Of a DNA stretch of 64,000 nt, positions 28,344 to 50,824 are shown in pieces. Location: positions 52,797-116,796 of the forward strand of contig JANYFE010000062.1 of NCBI GenBank assembly GCA_025362795.1, read 5' to 3'. Under the pieces are notes generated by a model that was not told the DNA's origin, made no database searches, and was given only the letters and a program-made list of their open reading frames with translations. Position 1 is the first letter of the stretch. Each line of letters begins with the position of its first letter. This DNA comes from Rhodobacterales bacterium (GTDB lineage Bacteria > Pseudomonadota > Alphaproteobacteria > Rhodobacterales > Rhodobacteraceae). Made by a program: the position numbers and the translations under genes.

Positions 28344-29165
28344 ATGTTTCAGTCCACCAGCCCCCGTTCCAACGTTGGCAGCCTGCTATCGACGCTGGAA
28401 CTCATCTTCCACGTCGCCGTGCGCGACATCCGCAAATCGCATGGCAATGCGATCATCGGCCTGCTGATCAGCATCGTGCAATCGCTGATTATGGTGCTGG
28501 TGTTCTGGTTCATGTTTACCGTCCTGAAAATGCGCGGGTCGGCAGTGCGCGGCGATTTCATGCTGTACACGATGTCCGGCATCTTCATGTACATGACCCA
28601 TATCCGCACCATCAAAGCCGTGTCCAAGGCCGAAGGGCCGACCTCCTCCATGATGAAACACGCGCCGATGAATACCATCGTCGCCATCGCCGGGCAGGCT
28701 CTGGCGGCGTTGTATCAACAAGTGCTGGCAATCGTGGTGATCCTGTTTTTCTACAACACGATGTTCAACCGTGTGGTGATCGAACAGCCGATCCCGGCCT
28801 TTGGCATGCTGCTGCTGGCCTGGGGGTCGGGGGTCGGTGTCGGCATGGTGTTCAAGGCTGCAACGCCCTGGGCCCCTGACTTCTTCGGCATCCTGACCTC
28901 TGTCTACACCCGCGCCAACATGATCGCATCCGGCAAGATGTTTCTGGCCAATGGCATGCGCACGTCACTGCTCGCCTGGTTCACCTGGAACCCGCTGTTC
29001 CACATCATCGACCAGTCGCGCGGCTACGTCTTTCTGAACTACCATCCGCATTATTCCAACCTGACTTACCCGATTGTCGCCACCTTCGTGCTGATCATCA
29101 TCGGCCTGATGGGCGACACTTTCACCCGCCACTACGCTTCCGCCAGCTGGAGCGCGGGGAAATAG
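28344..29165 (+). CDS. ABC-2 type polysaccharide export permease (KpsM-like)
   Basis: Six-TM pattern, 'IFHVAVRDIRKSHGNAIIGLLISIVQSLIMVLVFWFMF', 'WNPLFHIIDQSRGYVFLNYHPHYSNLTYPI' typical of capsule/LPS ABC-2 permeases; start at MFQSTSP. Confidence 0.82.
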   Translation: MFQSTSPRSNVGSLLSTLELIFHVAVRDIRKSHGNAIIGLLISIVQSLIMVLVFWFMFTVLKMRGSAVRGDFMLYTMSGIFMYMTHIRTIKAVSKAEGPTSSMMKHAPMNTIVAIAGQALAALYQQVLAIVVILFFYNTMFNRVVIEQPIPAFGMLLLAWGSGVGVGMVFKAATPWAPDFFGILTSVYTRANMIASGKMFLANGMRTSLLAWFTWNPLFHIIDQSRGYVFLNYHPHYSNLTYPIVATFVLIIIGLMGDTFTRHYASASWSAGK

Positions 29166-33142: not shown

Positions 33143-33267
33143 TACCCGTTCCTCCGCCCTGACAGACCTCCTCGCTCCCCCGGCAACAAGGGCCCGCAAG
33201 CGAGCGCGGCGCCTTTGCCTGCCGTCCCACCGCACGCCCTGTTAATCCCGGCCCGCCTTCCCCGTGT

Positions 33268-33386
33268 AGAGACGCGGGCAAGACGCTTTCAAGACGCCGT
33301 CAAGACAGTAAAAAACCCAACATTTGCTGCCGTTAACCATGATTTTCCCGCTGATTCGCTGCGGGTTTCACAAAGCGGTTAACCAT
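33268..33386. promoter_or_regulatory. Composite element A: 11-bp-phased CAAGAC/GTCTTG array plus two TTAACCAT boxes upstream of radC
   Basis: agagac 33268, CAAGAC at 33279, 33290 and 33301 (11-bp spacing); TTAACCAT at 33333-33340 and 33379-33386. Paralogous architecture at 50034-50165. Confidence 0.6.
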
Positions 33387-33417
33387 TCCTTCACCACAGT
33401 CATGCAAGCCTGCCCGC

Positions 33418-49285: not shown

Positions 49286-50023
49286 ATGCAAACCACGATT
49301 GACCCCGCCGAAGTGGCGAAGTTCGAGGCTATGGCGGCGGAGTGGTGGGATGTGAATGGCAAGTTCAAGCCGCTGCATCTGATGAATCCATGCCGTCTGG
49401 ACTACATCAACAGCCAGATTGCGGCGGAATACAATCGCGATCTGAAGCAGGCTAACCCGTTCAAAGGTTTGCGAATTCTGGACATTGGCTGCGGGGGCGG
49501 GCTGCTGAGCGAACCGATGGCGCGGCTGGGGGCGGAGGTTTTGGGGGCGGATGCGGCGGCGCGGAACATTCCGGTGGCCAAGTTGCATGCCGAGAGTTCC
49601 GGGCTGGTGATCGACTATCGCCACACCACGGCGGAGGATTTGGCGGCGGCGGGGGAGCAGTTCGATGTGGTGTTGAATATGGAGGTGGTGGAGCATGTTT
49701 CGGACCCGCTGGCCTATCTGACCGCCTGCCGGAATCTGCTAAAGCCGCAAGGAGTTATGATTTGCTCAACACTAAATCGGAACGCCAAAAGCTTCCTCAT
49801 GGCGATTATTGGCGCGGAATGGGTGATGCGGTGGCTGCCGAAGGGGACGCATGACTGGGCCAAGTTCATCACGCCTGACGAACTCTATGGGTTGATTGAA
49901 AAGGCGGGTTTAAGCCCGTTGGACCGCAAGGGAATGGTGTTCAACCCGGTCAGCTGGACCTGGTCGCTTTCGGCGCGGGATTTGTCTTGCAACTATGTGA
50001 CCACCTCGGTGCGCGCGGCCTGA
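49286..50023 (+). CDS. ubiG: 3-demethylubiquinone / polyprenyl-dihydroxybenzoate O-methyltransferase
   Basis: '[33 protein letters not shown]', SAM motif '[20 protein letters not shown]', '[15 protein letters not shown]'. Confidence 0.96.
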
Positions 50024-50033
50024 GTGCGCTGGA

Positions 50034-50165
50034 TTAACCATTGAAAATCATTGGATAATCTGGCGTTTCGGCAGAGGGCCGTTTGTCTTCTTTGCGTCTT
50101 GCCCGCGTCTTGAACGCGTCCCCACGCTTTATGGGCGATTTTTGCGGCGCCACGGCGTTAACCAT
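50034..50165. promoter_or_regulatory. Composite element B: 11-bp-phased GTCTTG array flanked by TTAACCAT boxes upstream of DUF4202-like gene
   Basis: TTAACCAT 50034-50041; GTCTTC 50085, GTCTTG 50096, GTCTTG 50107, GTCCCC 50118 (all 11-bp spacing); TTAACCAT 50158-50165. Shares the exact 17-mer GCGTCTTGCCCGCGTCT with element A (reverse complement). Confidence 0.6.
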
Positions 50166-50257
50166 TGGCCCCGAATCGCCGCCGTGCCGGTTGCGCAAGC
50201 CGCCGTCATCGGCAAAGCTGCGTCAGAGGTTTCCGGTCATCGGAAGGAGCGGCAGTC

Positions 50258-50824
50258 ATGGCAGCAGATGAGAACGCGCGGGCCGGTCTGGGGCAGGTTT
50301 TGGCCGCGATTGATGCCGCCAATGCCGCTGACCCGGCACAGGAAGCCGGGCTTTACGGCCAGAGGATGACGGAAGAATTGGCGCGGCTGGCGCCTGATGC
50401 GCCTGCGGTTTTGCAAATCGCCGCGCGGGGCCAGCATGTCGAGCGGTGGCTGTTGCCGCGCGAGGATTATCCGGCGGGCAAAGAAGGCTATCTCGCCTGG
50501 CGCATCGAACAGGGGCGGCGGCATGGGGCACGGGTTGCAGGTTTCATGGCCGGGGCCGGATTTCCGCAAGCCGATCAGGACCGGGTGGCGGCGATGTTGC
50601 GCAAAGAGGGGATCAAGCGTGACCCCGAGGTGCAACAGTTGGAGGACGTGGCCTGCTTTACCTTTCTGCGGTGGTATTTCCAGCCTTTTTCGCAAAAGCA
50701 TACGCCAGAGGCGTTGCTGAAAATCGTCAGCAAAACCGCCCGAAAAATGTCGGCTGTCGGGCGGGCGCGGGCCCTGGCAGAGTTTAACTTGCCAGAGCCA
50801 TTCGCAGCGGCATTTCAGAATTAG
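50258..50824 (+). CDS. DUF4202-like protein
   Basis: 'AARGQHVERWLLPREDYPAGKEGYLAWRIEQGRRHGARVAGFMAGAGF...DVACFTFLRWYFQPFSQKH'; start at MAADENARAG. Confidence 0.75.
   Translation: MAADENARAGLGQVLAAIDAANAADPAQEAGLYGQRMTEELARLAPDAPAVLQIAARGQHVERWLLPREDYPAGKEGYLAWRIEQGRRHGARVAGFMAGAGFPQADQDRVAAMLRKEGIKRDPEVQQLEDVACFTFLRWYFQPFSQKHTPEALLKIVSKTARKMSAVGRARALAEFNLPEPFAAAFQN

Follow-up and report, generated by a model that had tools for sequence, protein, structure and literature searches.

The window, as we call the whole 64,000-nucleotide stretch of DNA that was analysed, contains two copies of a short phased array, element A in the gap between dnaJ and radC and element B on the 3′ side of a ubiG-type methyltransferase gene (Table 1). 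The four hexamers of element B (GTCTTC, GTCTTG, GTCTTG and GTCCCC) start at 50085, 50096, 50107 and 50118 on the forward strand, and direct reading bears out the exact 11 bp steps that an earlier, sequence-only reading had reported for them. The 17-mer GCGTCTTGCCCGCGTCT joins the two elements, being present exactly at 50094 (+) and 33270 (−), and its reported sharing in reverse orientation therefore also stands; the elements had been called unlinked, although both lie on one contig, 17 kb apart.

Table 1. Features at elements A and B (positions are those of the window)
Feature	Position	Strand	Remark
Element A right TTAA box, GTTAAT on + (ATTAAC in array orientation)	33241..33246	−	Spacing as in other copies
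Element A fourth unit GTCTCTACA	33265..33273	−	
Element A core GTCTTGACGGC / GTCTTGAAAGC / GTCTTGCCCGC	33274..33306	−	Array read on minus strand
Element A left outer box, GCGAATC...GGTTAAC (array orientation)	33332..33359	−	Sole such box in the window; recurrent in copies of the same genome
ubiG-type methyltransferase gene	49286..50023	+	Pfam methyltransferase match; array is 3′ of its stop codon
TTAACCAT left of element B	50034..50041	+	Probable left box; 51 bp from array, usually about 30
Element B core, three 11 bp units GTCTTCTTTGC / GTCTTGCCCGC / GTCTTGAACGC	50085..50117	+	Direct reading; the genome has about 55 such arrays
Element B fourth, degenerate unit GTCCCCACG	50118..50126	+	Consensus GTCTCTACG, from 55-copy position profile
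Element B right outer box GTTAACCATTGGCCCCGAATCG	50157..50178	+	Family consensus GTTAACCAT + short spacer + GCGAATC
DUF4202 gene	50258..50824	+	Pfam PF13875, E = 5e-60

The two boxes said to bracket element B fared unequally. The right box, at 50158, fits the spacing of the family, and an equivalent box lies 3′ of the ubiG array in two genomes of the same genus (G008 and G002), whereas TTAACCAT at 50034 stands farther from the array than is usual; in relatives, a TTAA-type box just past the ubiG stop codon matches its place. A search of 15 other same-genus genomes did not find the DUF4202 gene, of which element B had been taken to be an upstream element. Since the array after ubiG persists in two genomes in which that gene was not found (G002 and G008), element B goes with ubiG, and its partner is the 3′ side of this gene and not the DUF4202 gene. 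We note that the DUF4202 gene is an accessory gene with ubiG on one side and an aldo/keto reductase gene on the other, and that many relatives keep those two genes adjacent.

In G002 and G008 the dnaJ–radC gap holds a diverged array, which we read as 11 bp phased (GTCTGTTCTCC GTCGGGTTTGC GTCTGTTTTCC). The TTAACCAT at 33379, previously assigned to element A as a companion box, is radC's own upstream box and is separate from the element; the real second box is GTTAAT at 33241, which had been missed. The sequence TTAACC-N5-TTCACC upstream of radC (33379–33395) is kept in some form across the same-genus genomes, with or without the array, and looks like a CtrA-type promoter site for radC, which is how we predict it. 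No Rfam family matched at elements A or B. Elsewhere in the window, positions 28907–29060 (−) match Rfam RF02645 (Ruegeria Cis2_sRNA) at 56.7 bits, above the gathering score.

Both elements belong to a family that is dispersed through the source genome (3.84 Mb in 108 contigs), where GCGTCTTGNNNGCGTCT has 39 exact matches and the reversed control none; a three-unit search returned 60 matches, several of them overlapping, with 0 in the control. All per-copy counts given here refer to a set of 55 arrays collected from fetched loci of this genome. Nearly all of them consist of three units (GTCTTGAACGC, GTCTTGCCCGC, GTCTTGCCGGC or close variants) followed by a fourth that ends in CTCTAC, most commonly GTCTCTACG (22/55), with GTGAAGAC in 8/55; in the position profile of the 55 copies the last C of CTAC in this unit carries 1.9 bits. 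The tails differ by unit position, with preferences that recur across copies for AACGC in unit 1, CCCGC in unit 2 and TTTGC or CCGGC in unit 3. The core has a sharp edge, the mean information per base being 1.38 bits within it and 0.17 and 0.11 bits in the flanks. With no more than one mismatch allowed, the window has in-phase hexamer triplets at two places, at a period of 11 only and at none of the periods 7–10 and 12–20, and 453 kb of the source genome contain nine at period 11 and 0 at every other period.

TTAA boxes are found about 30 bp to the left of the array start in 29/55 copies and about 60 bp to the right in 30/55, with both in 25/55; the control windows gave 0/55 on the left and 1/55 on the right. 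About half of the copies lie inside an element of roughly 120–165 bp that has GTTAA boxes and a GCGAATC motif at its borders, the others being naked arrays. The earlier notion of companion boxes was thus correct in that the TTAA boxes belong to the element, but TTAACCAT by itself is at chance level in the window (23 seen versus 19 expected, allowing one mismatch). Its suggestion of an undescribed class of repeated site is upheld, as the arrays are not confined to the two loci but number about 55 in this genome and are present in relatives, and literature searches found no published description of the family. Viral contigs had no match to the GTCTT-type array pattern, and blastn of plasmids with the element B region gave none.

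The element is non-coding and favours convergent gaps and the 3′ flanks of genes, with no fixed orientation. When genes were called with a simple codon model, 52 of the 55 arrays were intergenic, and the 50 with both neighbours called are distributed over 21 convergent, 22 co-directional and 7 divergent gaps, the background ratio for gaps of at least 60 bp being 34 : 123 : 61. Convergent gaps therefore hold 21/50 arrays where 16 % is expected, an enrichment of about threefold (P = 7e-6 by gap count, 2e-7 by length), and divergent gaps are depleted (7/50, P = 0.016). Within co-directional gaps the median distance of an array is 49.5 bp from the preceding stop codon versus 113 bp from the next start (P = 0.04). 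Arrays take either orientation with respect to the genes (9 same, 13 opposite). Arrays on one contig can face opposite ways at a distance of a few kb (C86 23120 − and 27756 +; C46 44116 − and 51169 +), and a KOPS-like replication polarity was rejected.

Genes that start toward arrays include rpsD, serS, murB, purB, aroC, secG, lpdA and a YmdB-like gene (for the last five, only the two window proteins were domain-scanned). There is no common theme among the 30 scanned neighbours whose start faces an array, and the neighbours that were scanned showed no link to GTA, competence or flagellar functions. The array is not a promoter element. Most REP copies are described from gaps between convergent or co-directional genes and from positions 3′ of coding sequences (PMC3733652), and the distribution of the arrays resembles that description and is unlike that of a promoter site. 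The proposal that the arrays mark a regulon upstream of its genes fails, given the convergent enrichment, the divergent depletion, the free orientation and the unrelated neighbours.

The relatives are draft genomes that were compared by stretches. In three of the same genus (G002, G008 and G010) the unit of the element is GTCTTCCTTCC, a GAGAC dyad is often present, and the outer modules are easily recognized, the left like CAAGCCCTTGAGAACGCTGGGTTAA and the right like GTTAACCATGTTGCGGCGAATC; the outer-box pattern was found in 7 of 16 same-genus genomes, with 0 in the control. G009 carries arrays of another word, CCTACA (149 overlapping matches, control 0), with units like AACGACCTACA / AACCACCTACA / TTGCGCCTACA / ATGCCTCTACA and outer modules as in the GTCTT-type genomes, and a few CCTACA arrays are present in G011 and G007. 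There are 0 CCTACA arrays in the source genome, G002, G008 and G010 and 0 GTCTT-pattern arrays in G009, G011 and G007, and no genome examined has both unit types together. In G001, G003–G006 and G013–G015 no array was found. The CTCTAC end of the fourth unit is common to the two. Two-gene trees place the source genome with G009, G011 and G007 on one side and G002, G008 and G010 on the other.

Matches of the GTCTT type extend to Tabrizicola MAGs, Fuscovulum blasticum and other Rhodobacteraceae. G041, a member of another genus, has degenerate CTACA-type 11 bp arrays that mostly open with CNGTAGCTACA (L313–L333), and from this genome it appears that the class, in another grammar, may not be confined to the genus. 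Several dispersed 11 bp tandem arrays per genome were also seen in a Thermoflexus MAG (L070, L076, L077, L081) and in Bacteroidales MAGs (L078, L093, L099, L113, L119), their GTCTTG-containing units (GTCTTGTGCCC, GTCTTGTAGCC) being repeated within each genome; these are probably unrelated to the Rhodobacteraceae family, and cross-phylum matches to the GTCTTG pattern, which look like ordinary 11 bp tandem repeats or chance, were not accepted as members. A separate REP-like palindrome family, GATGGGCAATCTGCCCATCCTACC, is present on contig C5 of G010 (L256–L292) in 14 copies within 730 kb, adjoining GTAG/CTAC; none was found in 453 kb of the source genome.

The positions of the arrays are partly inherited at the same places in related species. 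Ten of 42 sampled arrays of relatives fall in a gap that holds an array in the source genome, against 1.25 expected (P = 3e-7, which is approximate because the 42 include arrays that are orthologues of each other). Directly 3′ of ubiG there are GTCTT arrays in the source genome, G008 and G002 and CCTACA arrays in G009 and G011; the same flank has no array in G007, G010 and others (ubiG was not called in G012). Further pairs recoded in place are L163/L324, L164/L338 and L157/L342 (source genome/G009) and L141/L316 (source genome/G011), and in such pairs naked arrays are naked, and boxed arrays boxed, in both species. Upstream of lpdA and murB, G010 carries its own word at the matching place. 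It lacks the arrays that lie next to rpsD and a TPP-enzyme gene, which indicates that loss, gain or movement also occurs. The unit word has changed in concert by lineage, with the period, the unit number, the CTCTAC end and the outer boxes kept.

We think it somewhat probable that element B is a copy of a REP- or BOX-like dispersed intergenic repeat, the phased core of which is rewritten in concert by a putative trans-acting factor. Vertical inheritance of positions combined with concerted replacement of the core units alone calls for a trans-acting agent. Such a factor would read the phased core at every turn of the helix and keep all the sites alike. Most likely it would be a REP/MITE-type enzyme that copies or converts arrays, and it may or may not also play a structural part in the nucleoid. 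An enzyme that copies or converts arrays is supported by the position-specific tails and the uniform copies of G009, and a binding protein that imposes its word by selection is supported by the core-only conservation and the single word per genome; the two processes could be combined. Two independent insertions into a preferred spot could also, in principle, account for a difference of word at one site. A bolder formulation, which we offer tentatively, is that these are phased DNA-binding platforms of the Rhodobacteraceae in which the recognition word is switched as a set between GTCTT and CCTACA, in step with a single chromosomal protein or rewriting enzyme that evolves fast, while the positions, the 11 bp period and the CTCTAC end are kept. 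A role in chromosome organisation, as the sequence-only reading had proposed, is possible.

Alternatively, the arrays could be platforms for an oligomeric sequence-specific DNA-binding protein that places a subunit on every 11 bp along the same helix face and helps to organize the chromosome or its topology, for instance where convergent genes meet; the recoding would then follow a change in protein specificity. The conserved core between free flanks, the spacing of about one helical turn, the shared positions with in-place recoding, the single unit type per genome, and the lack of strand polarity and of promoter bias all agree with this, but we regard it as rather doubtful: without copying, it is hard to see how about 50 sites would be rewritten to suit a new specificity, the unit-specific tails that recur across copies look like the copying of whole arrays, and no protein was identified. 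The position of arrays near 3′ ends and between convergent genes, and the GTCTC...GAGAC dyad 3′ of the array in G002, G008 and G010, would suit an RNA element of 3′ untranslated regions, a terminator or mRNA stabilizer like transcribed REPs. This is unlikely, since the arrays face either way, the dyad is missing from most copies in the source genome and shows no co-variation between copies (swapped partners are as good in 232/500), and no poly-T tail was seen, nor an Rfam match at A or B.

Still less credible is a transcription-factor regulon of the OmpR/PhoB type, linked to CtrA, although OmpR-family regulators (CenR, CtrA, PhoB) do bind direct repeats about one turn apart, as in the CenR motif TGA-N8-TGA (PMC9275681), and TTAACCAT is a CtrA half-site (PMC3692519). 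CenR sites are co-directional upstream of the −35 element, whereas the units here read GTCTT-N6, are unoriented, number three to four and differ in sequence; a CtrA site would be TTAA-N7-TTAA(C) or TTAACCAT at a promoter, and the TTAA boxes lie about 90 bp apart around an array that is often between convergent genes. The bias of the arrays away from divergent gaps, their unrelated neighbours and the retention of the ubiG array in genomes where the DUF4202 gene was not found also argue against a regulon. Chance, or local tandem duplication at each locus, can be set aside almost entirely: unrelated GTCTTG-containing 11 bp tandem repeats do exist in distant phyla, but here the period is 11 only, the controls are 0 and tails are common to unlinked loci, and nearly every array is built of just three units, whose tails depend on their position, with no slippage-type variation in copy number, unlike a minisatellite or VNTR.

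The usual explanation of bacterial dispersed repeats is REP palindromes with a RAYT transposase, and the array family has neither. It resembles the REP/BIME/REPIN elements (GTAG and CGTC families) in its many short intergenic copies and its convergent and downstream bias, and REP elements can persist for long times (PMC8049555). It differs in that the core has direct 11 bp phased units in place of a 20–40 bp palindrome, a terminal dyad without co-variation being present in some species only, and in that the unit word switches between related species at the same positions. Searches for the RAYT (Y1 HUH) domain PF01797, which goes with REPs of the GTAG type, gave 0 matches in the source genome and none over the cut-off in 16 genomes, with positive controls matched, and no candidate enzyme or binding protein for the arrays was found; we therefore do not place the family among REP elements of the GTAG/CGTC kind. 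By keeping many places yet swapping its inner word between related species, the family constitutes a natural experiment on what keeps dozens of non-coding sites uniform, and the two unrelated words provide a handle for finding the responsible protein or enzyme.

Pneumococcal BOX and other MITE-like families are dispersed and non-coding, with outer modules around a repeated inner module. The array family is likewise modular, but differs in an inner unit of 11 bp in a fixed number of three. As to the terminal inverted repeats and target-site duplication that characterize a MITE, GTTAA boxes are present at both ends, and the one filled/empty pair compared (rpsD, source genome versus G010) is too diverged to define the ends. 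Plasmid partition centromeres of the ParR/parC type consist of iterated 11 bp repeats, and the arrays resemble them in offering 11 bp direct repeats, which an oligomer could contact from a single side of the helix; they differ in being dozens of dispersed chromosomal sites of three to four units each, as against a single site.
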